This document shows positions 34,801 to 64,000 of a DNA stretch of 64,000 nt, in pieces. Each line of letters begins with the position of its first letter. The first letter of the stretch is position 1. Location: contig NC_054706.1 in assembly GCF_016097555.1 (NCBI RefSeq), positions 59,351,921-59,415,920 on the forward strand, read 5' to 3'. The position numbers were made by a program, and so were the translations under genes. The DNA comes from Gigantopelta aegis (lineage: Eukaryota; Mollusca; Gastropoda; Neomphalida; Peltospiridae). The notes under the pieces are model-generated. The model saw nothing but the letters and a program-made list of their open reading frames with translations, did no database searches and was not told where the DNA came from.

Positions 34801-37800
34801 TGCTGTCACAGATTACTAATGTTTTATGATATTCTCTGTTAACATAAAATGTTAGGGGCATTCAGTGTCAAGTGAAATTCACTAGTTAGATTTTCTCTAG
34901 TTCGGATTTTAGTATGAAAAATATACAAATGGTTTATTGTTTTCCAAAAGTTTGATATAGTTTTTTATGTCTTAAAACAATTGAAATAATTTTGTGTGTT
35001 TAGTACTTCAAGAACGCTTGAACCGACAGGAAGCTGACAATGACAATGAGAGGAAACGATTGGAAGACCTGATAGCGCGGATGGAAACTCAGCTGAGAGA
35101 TCAAACCAGGATTCTTGATGAGGTTTGTCTGGTTTTAGACTCTTTTCTGATGAAGTCTTTATTAGCACTTGAATGTCACTAAATCACTGACTCTTTCATT
35201 ATTTGTTTAGTGGTATTCACTTTAATTAATTCGTTATTTTGATTGATTGATGGATGGATGAATGGATGGATGGATTCATTCATTCATTATTTAATTATTT
35301 CATTCATTCATTCTGTGGGCATGATGTAACACAGTGATAAAGCTTTTAAGCTTTTGTCTGATGCGTGGCCAGTCTAGAATCCATCCGTCCGTCCGTCCAT
35401 CCATCCCATCCCATCCCATCCCATCCCATCCCATCCCATCCCATCCCATCCCATCCCATCCCATCCCATCCCTCCATCCTTCCATCCATCCATCCATCCA
35501 CCCACCCACCCATCTGTTCTAGTTCAAATAATTTATAAAGAATTTTTATCTGTTTATATAATAATAAAAAAAATTCCATTTGCCTCAGAAGGTTTAAAAA
35601 TTAGTTAGGCAATTATACTAAGAAGCCGACGATAACTTTATCTGCAGATGTGCAATATTTACAAACGTTAAATTGTTGTGTTGTTAGGAAAGGTGGAAGT
35701 TGAAACAGGAGCAGAATCGTATCGAAGCTCTGCAGAGGTCTCTACAAGAAGAGCGCAGGATTTGGCTGGAGCAGCAGGCCAGAGACAAAGAAATGTTCGA
35801 GAAAACCAGAGTTAGTCACCCTTGGTTATTTCAGTATTTGTAATCATTAATAATGTCCGATAATTTACTTAATTAATAATATATACTTTTGATCTCTATA
35901 GCTTTGACACAAATTATTAGTCTTTAACTGTTAACCTCAGCAGTGATTATACGGTACATTTATCAGCCAATATATTTGTTGTCTTTGTCTGACAGCAAAT
36001 AAAAATAAAAAGACGACTTCCCGATATAAATACCTATTGTTAATAAATACATATTTTATTCACTTGACTGCAGTACAAACAGAGCATGTCTTGGTACATC
36101 TTAATGCCATACCGGTCCAACAAGAGGTAGGTTTTTGTCTTCATCTGTCATATCTGTCCACATAGAGTTTTCGGGACTTATTTTCATAATGTCTTCAGAT
36201 ATTGAGCTGAAATTTTGTATATAACTTTATCATTTAGAGTTACAGGCAAAGTGAGACATTTAGTGGGATTGATCCATTTTTGACAAGAGTTATGGCCCTT
36301 TAGGAGATACAATCATTTGTTGGGCTCGGTAGGGAACATGTATTGCCGTAGTAGTTCTCTCAGAATGCTTGTTTGTAACTTAAATTGCAGGCTTTTCGGT
36401 TCTCACTTTTAGAATGTCTTGATGCTACCTAACTAACTGAAATAATACTTTATTTTCAGTAATTTCTGGAGGAACAAAGACTTAATGCTACTCATTTCTA
36501 ATTGAAATCACACTTTGTTTTTAGTAATTTCTGGAGCAACAAAGGCTTAATGCCACTCATTTCTAACTGAAATCGTACTCTTTTCAGTCATCATTTCTGG
36601 AGGAACAGCGGACGTCTCTGTCACAGCTGAATGAAGAACGTCGGCTGATCTCAGAAGAAAGAACCAAACTGAGTGTTGACCAGAAGATGAGTCGAGAGAT
36701 GTTGCAACAGGAAGCAATTAAATCAGCACAGGTACGGATATATTTGATTAATCTGTCCGTCGAACTGTCCCTATGTCCCACATATAGTTTCAAGACTTTT
36801 TTTTTCCCCACAGTGCCTCAAGATTTTTTAGATGAAATTTTGTGTGTAACTTTATCATATAGAGTTACAGATCAAGTTTGAATTCCATATTGATTTTTCC
36901 ATTTTTGTATATTTAATAATTTATAATAAACATAAATGTTTAGCCATGTGCACACATTATATTTCATTATATATAGATCTAAAATAAATGAGCAATGATT
37001 ATCGTTCATAAATTCTGAAAAGTATGTATATATGTTTTGTATATGTATATAAAAAGTGTGGTTTTACAATCATTGTTTGATGAGTTATGATATCATATGT
37101 ATTAAAATAGTTTTTTGCTGTTTTGACTATTTTAGGCTAAGGCAGAATTTGAGGTTCTGATGAAGTCTATAGCTGAAGAACGAGCGAAATCGGCGTCCAA
37201 GATGCAGGAGCTTCGATCAGAAGAGGATCGCATCATCGCAGAACGAGCGCGACTGGAGCGTGAGAGAACAAACCTGGAACACGAGAAAGAGAAAATATCA
37301 AACCTGGCTCTGCAAGTCAAACAGAGGTCAACAGAAATTGAATCTCTCGCAGAGGTGAAAGTTATTCTAGATATTACATTGATTGAGATTTGGAGGGAAG
37401 AACTATGGTCAATAGTAGAGGGTGTATTTTCAAAGTATATGTATAGAATTTCTGCAAGTCAAACAGAGATCCACAGAAATAGAATCTCTAGCTAAGGTGA
37501 GTTATTCTAGATATATTGATTGGGATGTTGGGGAAGAGATAGTGTGGAAAGTACAGGATGTGTTTTCGAAGTATTTGTATATAATTTCTGTAAGTCAAAC
37601 CGAGATCCACAGAAATTGAATCTCTGGCTAAGGTGAGAGTTATTCTAGTAATTACATTAATTGGGATGTGAGGAAGGGAGGGGGAGCAAGGGTGAAAAGT
37701 AGAGGTTATGTTTTCAAAGTATTTATATAATTTCATTTAGGTTGTGTGGTCAAGTTAAAAAAAGCACCAAAAAATCCCAGTTGTGTAAAAGCAGATGTTT

Positions 37801-48261: not shown

Positions 48262-50498
48262 TGGTTATAAGACCCATACAGACAAGTCTGATTATATTAC
48301 AGAGTGGGACTTGGTTGTCGTTATGTAGTTACCACGTTATTCCATGTAAGACCCATACAGGCAAGTCTGATTATATTACAGAGTGGGACTTGGTTGTCGT
48401 TATGTAGTTACCACGTTATTCCATGTAAGACCCATACAGGCAAGTCTGATTATATTACAGAGTGGGACTTGGTTGTCGTTATGTAGTTACCACGTTATGC
48501 CATGTAAGACCCATACAGGCAAGTCTGATTATATTACAGAGTGGGACTTGGTTGTCGTTATGTAGTTACCACATTATTCCATGTAAGACCCATACAGGCA
48601 AGTCTGATTATATTACAGAGTGGGACTTGGTTGTCGTTATGTAGTTACCACGTTATGCCATGTAAGACCCATACAGACAAGTCTGATTATATTACAGAGT
48701 GGGACTTGGTTGTCGTTATGTAGTTACCACGTTATGCCATGTAAGACCCATACAGGCAAGTCTGATTATATTACAGAGTGGGACTTGGTTGTCGTTATGT
48801 AGTTACCACGTTATTCCATGTAAGACCCATACAGACAAGTCTGATTATATTACAGAGTGGGACTTGGTTGTCGTTATGTAGTTACCACGTTATTCCATGT
48901 AAGACCCATACAGGCAAGTCTGATTATATTACAGAGTGGGACTTGGTTGTCGTTATGTAGTTACCACGTTATGCCATGTAAGACCCATACAGACAAGTCT
49001 GATTATATTACAGAGTGGGACTTGGTTGTCGTTATGTAGTTACCACGTTATGCCATGTAAGACCCATACAGGCAAGTCTGATTATATTACAGAGTGGGAC
49101 TTGGTTGTCGTTATGTAGTTACCACGTTATTCCATGTAAGACCCATACAGGCAAGTCTGATTATATTACAGAGTGGGACTTGGTTGTCGTTATGTAGTTA
49201 CCACGTTATTCCATGTAAGACCCATACAGGCAAGTCTGATTATATTACAGAGTGGGACTTGGTTGTCGTTATGTAGTTACCACGTTATTCCATGTAAGAC
49301 CCATACAGGCAAGTCTGATTATATTACAGAGTGGGACTTGGTTGTCGTTATGTAGTTACCACGTTATTCCATGTAAGACCCATACAGGCAAGTCTGATTA
49401 TATTACAGAGTGGGACTTGGTTGTCGTTATGTAGTTACCACGTTATTCCATGTAAGACCCATACAGGCAAGTCTGATTATATTACAGAGTGGGACTTGGT
49501 TGTCGTTATGTAGTTACCACGTTATTCCATGTAAGACCCATACAGGCAAGTCTGATTATATTACAGAGTGGGACTTGGTTGTCGTTATGTAGTTACCACG
49601 TTATTCCATGTAAGACCCATACAGGCAAGTCTGATTATATTACAGAGTGGGACTTGGTTGTCGTTATGTAGTTACCACGTTATTCCATGTAAGACCCATA
49701 CAGGCAAGTCTGATTATATTACAGAGTGGGACTTGGTTGTCGTTATGTAGTTACCACGTTATTCCATGTAAGACCCATACAGGCAAGTCTGATTATATTA
49801 CAGAGTGGGACTTGGTTGTCGTTATGTAGTTACCACGTTATTCCATTAAGACCCATACAGGCAAGTCTGATTATATTACAGAGTGGGACTTGGTTGTCGT
49901 TATGTAGTTACCACGTTATTCCATGTAAGACCCATACAGGCAAGTCTGATTATATTACAGAGTGGGACTTGGTTGTCGTTATGTAGTTACCACGTTATTC
50001 CATGTAAGACCCATACAGGCAAGTCTGATTATATTACAGAGTGGGACTTGGTTGTCGTTATGTAGTTACCACGTTATTCCATGTAAGACCCATACAGGCA
50101 AGTCTGATTATATTACAGAGTGGGACTTGGTTGTCGTTATGTAGTTACCACGTTATTCCATGTAAGACCCATACAGACAAGTCTGATTATATTACAGAGT
50201 GGGACTTGGTTGTCGTTATGTAGTTACCACGTTATTCCATGTAAGACCCATACAGGCAAGTCTGATTATATTACAGAGTGGGACTTGGTTGTCGTTATGT
50301 AGTTACCACGTTATGCCATGTAAGACCCAAACAGGCAAGTCTGATTATATTACAGAGTGGGACTTGGTTGTCGTTATGTAGTTACCACGTTATTCCATGT
50401 AAGACCCATACAGGCAAGTCTGATTATATTACAGAGTGGGACTTGGTTGTCGTTATGTAGTTACCACGTTATTCCATGTAAGACCCATACAGACAAGT
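48262..50498. repeat. 79-bp satellite array, about 28 copies
   Basis: The unit contains TTACCACGTTATTCCATGTA, AGACCCATACAGGCAAGTCT and AGAGTGGGACTTGGTTGTCG. Twenty-seven units from 48329 to 50460 differ at only about four positions; one unit near 49845 lacks a single base. The left flank (from about 48170) and the terminal piece are degenerate. Variants (TTATGCC, CAGACAAG) sit near both ends while the middle 13 units are alike, as expected from unequal exchange. It is open in every plus-strand frame for about 60 codons, which is a by-product of the unit. Confidence 0.98.
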
Positions 50499-59983: not shown

Positions 59984-61175
59984 GATGTTATTCAAGCATG
60001 TAAAATGAAAATGCATTCAGACATTTTTTTACTAATTGCTCTTTTCAAAATTCTGCCCATTTTCAACTCATGGTTCATCCTCAAGTTCATACTCATTTAG
60101 CACAAGATCAATACATTTTTCTCATATGTCAGTAGTCCATTTTAGTCCATTCTGGTTTGTTGGGTTTTTTAAATTACAGTCACTGTGGCCGTTTTTAAGT
60201 CAGCAGGGAGTCAGTGATCTGCAGATGCCTCTGTTGCAACAGGGTCACTTCAACACACAAAACACAAGTGGTACACACAAAGCATGAACTGCATGGTGAA
60301 TTAAATGTCATCTTGATGTGCTACCGATGTGCGAACCAAGAATGATTCTATTGCATATTTACTTAATAAAATTATAATCACAGTGATCAGCTAACGGGTA
60401 CCTCCCCAGGATCAGACCTCTGGCCATGCCAGGGGTCGGACTCGAGGGAGACATGCCTGAACCTTCAATGGATAGAGGCATGTAAAACAAGTTTTGAGAT
60501 TAAAAGGATACCAAAACATCACGAGATCAAACCATTCCTTTTTCGATGTTATATTTGACAGGTATTCCTTTTGTTTCAAAATATACTTTAAAGCAGCAGT
60601 CTCTATTATTTTTTATATTTAAGCATTCAGAACATGATAAACATTTCTGGTTTTCCCCATACAATATGCTATTCTTTGATTTTCTTGTGATCTTATTTAC
60701 AGTTTTATTCAAACAGACAAGAAGGGCAATATCATGGAATGTAACCACCAAGTTCCCATGTATTGCAAAATGCAAAAAGTAAAATTGCAAAATATAATTC
60801 TGAAGTTGCCTTTTTCATTTTATTGACAGACTGCTTGCAAAAAACCACCCATCTTTTTTCATTATTACCTAATTATATGGTCTACAGCAATTACAAATAA
60901 TGTTTTAGCCATTTTGTTTTAATGATAATAATACTTAAGCAATTGATATTTTTATATTGCATTGCTAAAACAATATAGAACTGAGTAGTTAAATGCTTCT
61001 TTTGTTTAACGACACTACTAGACCTCATTGATTTATTAGTCATATTAATACTTTTAACTAAAAGTTTGCATGTCAAACATATGATAATCTTGACCCATAA
61101 TCCTCGGAGAAAACCCGCTACATTTTTTCCATTAAGGACTGCTGCTTTAATTAAAAATCACAATTATCACGGACT
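59984..61175. other. 3' flank of the sphingosine kinase gene
   Basis: Probably includes its 3' UTR. A SINE-B fragment lies at about 61000-61135 (TTTGTTTAACGACACTACTA). The 87-codon minus-strand frame at 60527-60790 matches nothing known. Confidence 0.45.
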
Positions 61176-64000
61176 TTATTGCATAGCCATGATTCGACTG
61201 AGATGAGGAAGAATCTGGCCCTGTATCGGTCCACATTCGACTTTCTCTCCGTCAACCATCATATTCCCTTCTTCGGTGATCGGTTCTATTCTGAAGGCAA
61301 GAGCTTTCACAATCTCTACATTCGGTGAATCGATATGGCCGCCATCACCAAACGTCATCAGCAGAGACAGCAGTGCGGACTTTGACAGGCCTTCGCGCGC
61401 GAAGACCAGATACATAAAGCCGTCGCTGAGGTGGGCGTGAGGTGCCGCCAGCATGTCGCTACCCAGGTGAGTCTGGTACACCACGGAAACGAAAATAAAA
61501 GAGTCATCGATGGTGACCCAGTTTCCAGGCACAGGCTGGTCGAGAGGAGGAAGCAATGGACACGAGACTGATCCAATACTCGACTTGGGCGCCAGGGCCG
61601 TTTCGGTTTCAATCTCAAAGTCCTCACGGCTGGCTGAAGCCGTTATCTTGTCTAGTTTCCACACCACAGAGTCCAACCTACCATCAGTAGCACCAGCGTC
61701 GTCCTCGTTTGAGATTTCATTCTGATTTGTGTTCCCCTCCACCGTACCGTTATCACCTGCCAAGCTGTTTTCCACAACCAGCATTGCATCCAGATCATTT
61801 CGTGTCAGCTGATTTGACCCACTGCTCTTTGATTTCGACAGGTTTGGCTCCGATCTGGCAGGACTCATCTGATGAGGAGACTCTTCCTTCAGGTTCGGTA
61901 AGAAGCCGTTTTCCTGTGTCCTGTTTTCACTGACTGCTCTTGTTCTGGAAGGTATCAGGTCCTGGTCCGATGATGTCTGTCTGATCAAACCACTGGGGAA
62001 TTCTTGGTAACTGTGTGACTGGTCGTCAACATTTGTCAAGTTTAAAGTGCTTCTGCTGCTCCTCCAGGAAAAACGTCGGATTTTCGACACTATAGATCGG
62101 TTTGAGTTGTTCACTTTCGGTTTGTACTCGGCTACAGGCAGGAATGAAAAACGACCTTTATATGTCCGCAAGTCTGAAATGTAAACAATGAAAAAAACCT
62201 TAATAGTTTTTCTCTTTTCAAGAATACTTCACCTGGCTCCGTGCTTATAAAACTTTTAAAGTCTAAACTCAAGACTCTGACAAAGATAGAAAGAAAGAAA
62301 TGTTTTATTTAACAATGCACTCAACACATTTTATTTATGGTTATATGGCGTCAGACATATGGTTAAGGATCACACAGATATTGAGAGAGGAAACCTGCTG
62401 TCGCCACTTCATGGTCTACTCTTTTTCGATTAGCAGCAAGGGATCTTTTATATGCACCATCCAACAGACAGGGTAGTACATACCACAGCCTTTGATATAC
62501 CAGTTGTGGTGCACTGGCTGGAACGAGGCAAGACTGACAAAGTCTGAAACTTGAATGGCATGGCAACACCATACAAACTACATGCATGTAATGCCATTAA
62601 AGATTTAAGATTAAAAAAAACATTTTATAATAAAAATAGGATCTGAACTTTAAAAATGAGAGCATCTCCCCCTTCTACAAATGGACTGGTCTGAATAACT
62701 CAATGTTTAGATAACATAATTTCTTCTCTTTTTTTTCTCTCCCATACTTCATAACCACTTGTCATAACTTTAGATAACTTACCTCAGAGCATGGCCCTGT
62801 CATTCAAAAGTTAGATAACCTATATATGTGACAGGAAATGCATTCTCAGCAGAATACATTGCAGATAAGATGGGGAAGCATGTAATCAGTCGAGTACACA
62901 ACATATAGGTGATTATGTCCTAGATAATGAATCATTATGGTCTCTTTGGCATCGTGGTTAGGCCATCGGTCTACAGGCTGGTAGGTAATGGGTTCGGATC
63001 CCAGTCGTGGCATGGGATTATAAATGTGTTGAGAGCGTCGTTAAATAAAACATTTCTTTCTTTCTTTTTCGTAATAAAATAATAACCATAACCATAATAA
63101 AAACGTGTTGCATGCATGATTAATTCAAACAATTCTTCCTTTCTTTATTTAAAAAGAAATTTGTTAACCAAGACCCTGATTAGGTACAATGGTTCTTTTT
63201 ATTTCATTTCAACTTATTTTCTGTGCTTATATCCAATTAAGGTTCAAGCATGCTGTCCTGGGCACACACCTCAGCTATTTGGGCTGTCTGTCCAGGACAG
63301 TGAGTTAGTTGTTAGTGAGAGAGAAGAGGGTGCAGTGGACCCAGTACCTACCAGCCTTATGTCTGATGGCTTAACCGCGACACCACAAAGGCCCACAGTA
63401 TCAATAGCCACAGAGGTAGAAAGAAAATATATCACTTACTCATAGTCCTTTTGAGGGCCCCCACAGTAAACCTGGCTTCTCCAATGGCTCTGTATTTCTA
63501 GGTGAGAGCCGGTCCCAGACTGCGAACCCAGTACCTACCAGCCGTATGTCCGATGGCTTAACCGCGACACCACAAAGGCCCACAGTACCACAGAGGTAGA
63601 AAGAAAATATATCACTTAGCCGTAAACCTGGCTTCTCCAATGGCTCTGTATGGTGAGAGCCGCTTACCACCGCGATGGCTTAACCGCGACACCACAAAGG
63701 CCCACAGTATCAATAGCCACAGAGGTAGAAAGAAAATATATCACTTACTCATAGTCCTTTTGAGGGCCCCCACAGTAAACCTGGCTTCTCCAATGGCTCT
63801 GTATTTCTGGGTGGGAGCCGGTCCCAGACTGCGAACCCAGTACCTACCAGCCTTATGTCCGATGACTTAACCGCGACACCATATAGGCCCACAGTATCAA
63901 TAGCCACAGAGGTAGAAAAATATATCACTTACTCATAATCCTCTTCAGGGCCCCCACAGTAAACCTGGCTTCTCCAATGGCTCTGTACTTCTCACTTTCA
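61176..64000 (-). CDS. SPHK: Sphingosine kinase (SPHK1/2-like), last two exons, 5' part beyond the window
   Basis: Last exon 61176-62173 (TAA at 61176-61178) and the upstream exon from 63933 past base 64000. The joint is phase 1 on both sides. The upstream exon gives ESEKYRAIGEARFTVGALKR; the last exon continues LRTYKGRFSFLPVAEY, matching SPHK SEKYRxLGxxRFTLGT...LRTYRGRLxYLPV. A 200-residue Ser/Asn/Asp-rich linker follows, then PVPGNWVTIDDSFIFVS, HLGSDMLAAPHAHLSDGF and, near the end, MMVDGEKVECGPIQGQILPH. The AAPHA and VDGEKVECGP blocks look closer to SPHK2, as does the long linker. Known role: ATP-dependent phosphorylation of sphingosine to sphingosine-1-phosphate. The catalytic N-terminal part is outside the window. 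Confidence 0.93.
62286..62533 (-). mobile_element. SINE-A, 5'-truncated, in the sphingosine kinase intron
   Basis: Flanked by CTGACAAAG at 62277-62285 and 62534-62542. It stops at GCACTGGCTGGAACGAG, before the head. Confidence 0.9.
62938..63068 (+). mobile_element. Short SINE: D head joined directly to A tail
   Basis: GCATCGTGGTTAGGCCATCG (A box), GGGTTCGGATCCCAGTCGT (B box), then GTGTTGAGAGCGTCGTTAAA and CTTT repeats. The whole central body is absent. Confidence 0.8.
63218..63395 (-). mobile_element. SINE-C at the edge of an exon duplication
   Basis: Reading on +: TATATCCAATTAAGGTTCAA, CTGTCCTGGGCAC, then the head AACCGCGACACCACAAAGGC. The head part is repeated in each duplicated unit to the right. 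Confidence 0.8.
63440..63497 (-). pseudogene. Sphingosine kinase exon copy 1
   Basis: It encodes KYRAIGEARFTVGALKRTM with no stop, a GTAAGT donor in the same phase as the true exon and an AG supplied by the SINE head (CACCTAG). It lacks the ESE start of the true exon and has Thr for Ile near the end. It may be a dead copy or a cryptic exon. Confidence 0.75.
63621..63651 (-). pseudogene. Sphingosine kinase exon copy 2 (truncated)
   Basis: Only the middle remains (ACAGAGCCATTGGAGAAGCC on the minus strand). The donor and the last part of the exon are deleted, so it cannot act as the exon. Confidence 0.75.
63749..63806 (-). pseudogene. Sphingosine kinase exon copy 3
   Basis: Same 58-bp content as copy 1, with the donor GTAAGT and an AG from the SINE head (CACCCAG). 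Its frame is open. Confidence 0.75.

Follow-up and report, generated by a model that had tools for sequence, protein, structure and literature searches.

A sphingosine kinase exon end and a SINE head repeated in tandem in Gigantopelta aegis, with copies that are most likely silent pseudo-exons

Main finding

In a sphingosine kinase gene of the gastropod Gigantopelta aegis, an array on the minus strand holds a true exon and then three incomplete copies, which derive from the last 58 nt of that exon and are separated by truncated SINE heads. By far the best explanation, and one in which we place considerable confidence, is a neutral tandem duplication straddling the exon end, whose products would most likely be silent and would truncate the protein if they were used. 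The window, by which we mean the whole 64,000-nt stretch of contig NC_054706.1 that was analysed, has the array at its end, and the adjoining 30 kb of the same chromosome, from position 61001 on, were included in the analysis. A preliminary description of this DNA can be upheld in part, as its repeat of the exon end with a SINE head stands and several of its coding details do not.

The gene and the array

The sphingosine kinase gene is on the minus strand, and the exons that matter here are as follows.

65667-65552, minus strand: preceding exon, 116 nt, exit phase 2
64153-63933, minus strand: true exon, 221 nt, of which only the 3' part (63933..64000) is inside the window
63927..63932, minus strand: true donor GTAAGT, directly after the 221-nt exon
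62173-61176, minus strand: next and last coding exon, 998 nt including the stop, open frame

The true exon has a good acceptor (TTTCTTTCTTTCAG), is entered in phase 2 and is left in phase 1. The joined protein matches human SPHK1 structures (chains 3vzb and others) with E 8e-43; the homology covers both exons of the array stretch, and the alignment runs without a gap over the 63933/62173 junction. The YegS_C domain of the last exon scores over its cut-off, and the DAGK_cat part, at 20.7 bits, is under its cut-off of 23.6.

In transcript order the true exon and its donor lead into 43 nt of intron, head A, and copy B with donor and intron; there follow head B, copy C, intron, head C, copy D with donor and intron, and finally a SINE that has a body and a tail.

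63807..63889, minus strand: truncated SINE head A, terminating in CTCCCACCCAG
63749..63806, minus strand: partial exon copy B, 58 nt, then GTAAGT (63748-63743)
63652..63702, minus strand: SINE head B, with an internal deletion
63622..63651, minus strand: damaged partial exon copy C, of which 30 nt remain
63498..63580, minus strand: truncated SINE head C, terminating in CTCTCACCTAG
63440..63497, minus strand: partial exon copy D, 58 nt, then GTAAGT (63439-63434)
63196..63393, minus strand: SINE with head, body and tail, lower end approximate

The earlier picture of a true exon followed by three partial copies is therefore sound as to the order of transcription on the minus strand, provided that the true exon is given its full 221 nt and the copies only its last 58.

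The repeat itself is real. The blocks 63365-63590 and 63674-63899 match at 97% across 226 nt, which excludes chance, and the exon end is present in four registers within the array. Copies B and D are alike at 58/58 nt and differ from the true exon at four of the 58, three of the differences being synonymous and one changing Ile to Thr. Copy C has lost its acceptor AG and its donor, as well as sequence from the interior of the exon, so that one of the three copies is left with neither splice site. When the whole genome was searched with the exon, there were four matches, all in the array, and thus no copies outside it. Might the array be an artefact of assembly, produced by read segments that were misplaced or duplicated? 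Short near-identical repeats that adjoin one another, in a single assembly, are in favour of this idea; against it, the units carry private indels and substitutions and share one junction register, and we regard an artefact as very unlikely. The copy number of the array may differ between haplotypes.

The SINE and the junction

Each of the two intact copies is preceded by the head of a SINE with abundant copies in the G. aegis genome, and on this point, the copying of the exon together with a SINE head, the preliminary description was right. The dispersed copies share head, body and tail, as expected of a tRNA-type SINE, and the head is one that we take to be of tRNA origin. There are 29 head matches in the analysed sequence, and the majority sequence, which reads ...CGGCTCCCACCCAGAGCGAGTTTTAACGACTC..., was built from 16 of them, leaving aside four rows from the array, eight rows from a second SINE family, and a row of poor quality (window 18347). 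Of the four elements from the array, three were included in the alignment but did not enter the count. The second family has the same head with another body (CCAGTCGAGGCATGGGATTTTTAATCC...) and is seen at window 62939-62996 and other sites. Three pieces of the array SINE, used as queries for a name, had no match in the literature.

Is the fusion of head to exon a property of the SINE or of this array? Fifteen of the 16 aligned copies continue through the array breakpoint, and the remaining one is deleted there. Exact matches in the genome number 4139 for the 21-mer that ends in CCCAGAG and 239 for the AGAA form, with none for a reversed control; all 12 loci inspected among the 239 continue into the SINE body. 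Judging by these SINE copies, fusion of the head to exon sequence is peculiar to this array. The idea of a recurrent point of fusion within the SINE is rejected for the sample, that is, for the 12 of 12 loci inspected out of 239 and the 15 of 16 aligned copies.

At the breakpoint the SINE reads CACCC-AGA-GCG, the exon GTG-AGA-AGTAC and the array junction CACCC-AGA-AATAC. The AGA occurs both in the true exon (GTGAGAAGTAC) and in the SINE, whose majority sequence from 16 copies reads CACCCAGAGCG here, and because of this 3-nt match the AG before the copies belongs to both alike; the earlier derivation of the acceptor AG from the SINE assigned to one parent what cannot be attributed to it alone. 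The register of the junction is the same in both intact heads, and the third junction differs by a deletion only. Microhomology of this kind is by itself weak evidence, as 5.5% of random breakpoint pairs in the stretch have a 3-nt match. A target-site duplication flanking the SINE was sought, and none was clear.

The position of the junction inside a SINE would also suit an RNA-templated event, in which a template switch during SINE retrotransposition produced the chimeras of head and exon. In the repeated unit, however, the donor and the unspliced intron follow each other as they do in the genome, which DNA duplication predicts, and we find the RNA-templated account scarcely credible. A tandem duplication of the exon end and SINE head would leave direct repeats in genomic order that include intron sequence and have a single junction register, and the array has these features.

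The copies and the message

Could the copies be of use to the gene? Ten splice forms were modelled, namely the normal form, one with the exon skipped, and eight in which a copy, or the donor of a copy, is used. The phases and stops are read directly, and all eight of these last forms stop early, which rules out a role as alternative coding exon for the copies. For copies B and D the entry phase is 0 and the exit phase 1. They were said to keep the frame, the GTAAGT donor and the phase of the exon, and they do keep the donor and the exit phase; their entry phase is 0 against the true exon's 2. Because exit phase is kept and entry phase is not, a swap loses far more than the ESE that had been named as its whole cost, and it shifts the frame: in the model a copy that replaces the 221-nt exon brings a frameshift, with a stop as the last codon of the copy. 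The frame shift that had been foreseen for a copy spliced after the true exon is borne out by the model, which places the stop 16 nt into the last exon. The protein would then end ...KIQSHWRSQVYCGGPQKDYELADI, with the last exon's domain gone. If the copy's donor were instead used to extend the true exon, the stop would be immediate (SK*).

Mutually exclusive exons share entry and exit phase, and exchanging them keeps the frame. The copies do resemble the exon end, but they have another entry phase, replacement leads to a frameshift and a stop, and 58 nt are no substitute for 221 nt that encode a conserved core. A mutually exclusive alternative coding exon is refuted for the assembled sequence by phase and stops, and we put its likelihood close to nil.

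A different role would be that of truncating cassette exons, which lower or retune the output of sphingosine kinase. AG and GTAAGT are kept in two copies, and inclusion truncates in every form modelled. The 50-nt rule is a guide to message decay; it would spare the messages with replacement or inclusion, because their stop falls either on the last junction or past it. A stop inside the last exon or at its border would not come under the rule, and the messages, if spared, would give a short protein that lacks the domain of the last exon. These points have to be set against the state of the splice sites, both of which are gone in one of three copies, and against the weak pyrimidine tracts of the copy acceptors, which place them in the middle ranks. 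Among the 127 AGs between 62144 and 64193, the true acceptors rank 1 and 4 and the copy acceptors 24 and 26, by a count of pyrimidines in the preceding 20 nt that is a crude measure and no splice predictor. We consider a role as cassette exons unlikely. A broader proposal, that the SINE head is a recurrent focus of local duplication that makes truncating pseudo-exons, some of them spliced at a low level in sphingosine kinase so as to damp the enzyme, appears similarly improbable. As judged from the DNA, the copies are most likely silent pseudo-exons, and their silence in RNA is inferred.

Proposed history of the array

What steps might account for the array under a neutral tandem duplication? 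The copies, junctions and deletions are plain to see, and the order of events and slippage as the mechanism are our reconstruction. A tRNA-like SINE would have inserted in the intron about 43 nt past the donor of the 221-nt exon. A slip of replication or repair would then have duplicated a stretch that begins within the exon (...GAG|AAGTAC) and ends within the SINE head (...CACCC|AGAGCG), joining the ends at the common AGA, and the new unit may have grown to three by unequal exchange or slippage. Deletions would later have struck the units, taking 63 positions from the last SINE, the central part from one head, and both acceptor and donor from one copy. By chance the junction sets an AG before a 58-nt exon remnant with a donor, giving two pseudo-exons.

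The SINE at 63196..63393 is likely the parent copy of the array heads. Compared with the majority sequence it lacks 63 positions, with the CACCCAG site among the losses, so the parental breakpoint site is gone. Units 1-3 share, against the true unit, a 3-nt indel and the noncoding bases at 107, 109 and 126, which points to one first duplication and later re-expansion. With gap columns excluded and, for U3, the columns beyond its deletion, noncoding differences from the true unit are 4/94 to 7/119 and 7/92, and among the later units 3/90 to 4/86, several of them at deletion edges.

One might think that the identity of copies B and D and the excess of synonymous differences could hint at constraint on the copies. 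Three of the four differences between copy and exon are synonymous, where 28% is the neutral expectation, and the probability of at least three in four is 0.07. The excess is not significant, and selection on the copies is rejected as an inference from it; drift of the constrained true exon after the duplication explains it too. The preliminary description had also seen the SINE as part of an exon-amplifying unit. SINE head, exon end and donor are indeed joined in one unit, and amplification in a functional sense does not follow; on present reading of the sequence, the phrase is a description of DNA only.

Comparison with known systems

Several known systems resemble the array in part. Tandem exon duplication can give mutually exclusive exon pairs (PMC9741552), and there as here exon sequence is copied beside itself in a gene; in our case, in contrast, only the last 58 of 221 nt are copied, the entry phase is wrong and all modelled use truncates. 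Partial tandem duplication over coding sequence with cryptic AG/GY is a route to novel introns (PMC2891723) and likewise sets splice-site-like signals beside copied coding sequence, whereas here the gene's own intron and donor are copied and no new intron position in coding sequence is apparent. In the exonization of transposable elements (PMC2592719) mobile-element sequence also stands before a potential acceptor. The potential acceptor AG of the array adjoins the SINE head, yet it is common to the exon, and what would serve as exon is a copy of gene sequence and not SINE. Tandem repeats derived from SINEs include PcH-sat, from Nin-SINE in Patella (PMC11121367), and Hy/Pol III and Xenopus Satellite 1 derive from tRNA-related regions (PMC9659126). 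In these too, the tandem unit includes a portion of a tRNA-type SINE; the present array differs in being four units with unique gene sequence and no satellite.

In the available parts of the literature on comparable cases we found no description of this locus, and a search on sphingosine kinase and molluscs gave nothing relevant among the matches listed. The array, which is young, shows clearly how pseudo-exons can arise from a short duplication and a mobile element close to a donor. It also advises caution, as partial exon copies with intact donors pass for alternative exons as long as their phase and the full length of the exon have not been checked.

Other repeats in the neighbourhood and the genome

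How unusual is such an array? When 91 kb of sequence were compared with themselves, local direct repeats fell into 21 clusters (pairs of at least 45 nt, at least 75% identical and 50-700 nt apart), some of which may be neighbouring mobile elements. Three of the 21 are exon-edge arrays, and no enrichment of repeats at exon edges is claimed. Two of the three are in an FBF1 gene on the plus strand of the same window, a family assignment that has one exon over the cut-off and one under.

36418-36607, plus strand: FBF1 array, a repeat of the intron end with the acceptor and the start of the exon
37309-37734, plus strand: FBF1 array, in which the exon's last 45 nt with donor and intron occur three times

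The first places two extra copies upstream of the acceptor in use. The second holds three donors, GTGAAAG, GTGAGT and GTGAGAG; GTGAAAG, the one joined to the open frame, looks weaker than the GTGAGT and GTGAGAG of the copies. A search for head matches found the head of the array SINE in neither FBF1 array, a result that concerns this SINE only, and exon-edge copying here therefore needs no SINE.

Tandem arrays that contain no exon are also built from parts of the SINE.

C9, L019 877-1721: 95-nt unit, 8.9 copies
C1, L052 870-2962 and L066 883-3015: 118-nt units, 17.7 and 18 copies
L027 948-1848: 132-nt unit, 6.8 copies

A third cluster of the SINE 21-mer on C1, among the matches listed, has a spacing of about 120 nt. 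Among the 100 places listed of the 4139, 39 fall in three clusters, a share that is not representative, since all three are in the first 4.1 Mb of C1. The four arrays with 95-, 118-, 118- and 132-nt units are SINE-derived satellite-like repeats. With local repeats, the FBF1 arrays and SINE-derived tandem arrays surrounding or paralleling it, the sphingosine kinase array is ordinary.

Two further repeats were observed. A 79-nt tandem repeat occupies window 48268-50498, with 28.3 copies and 98% matches, and telomere-like GTTAGG repeats are found inside a chromosome-sized contig, on C4 near 24.83 Mb (L020 1-136).
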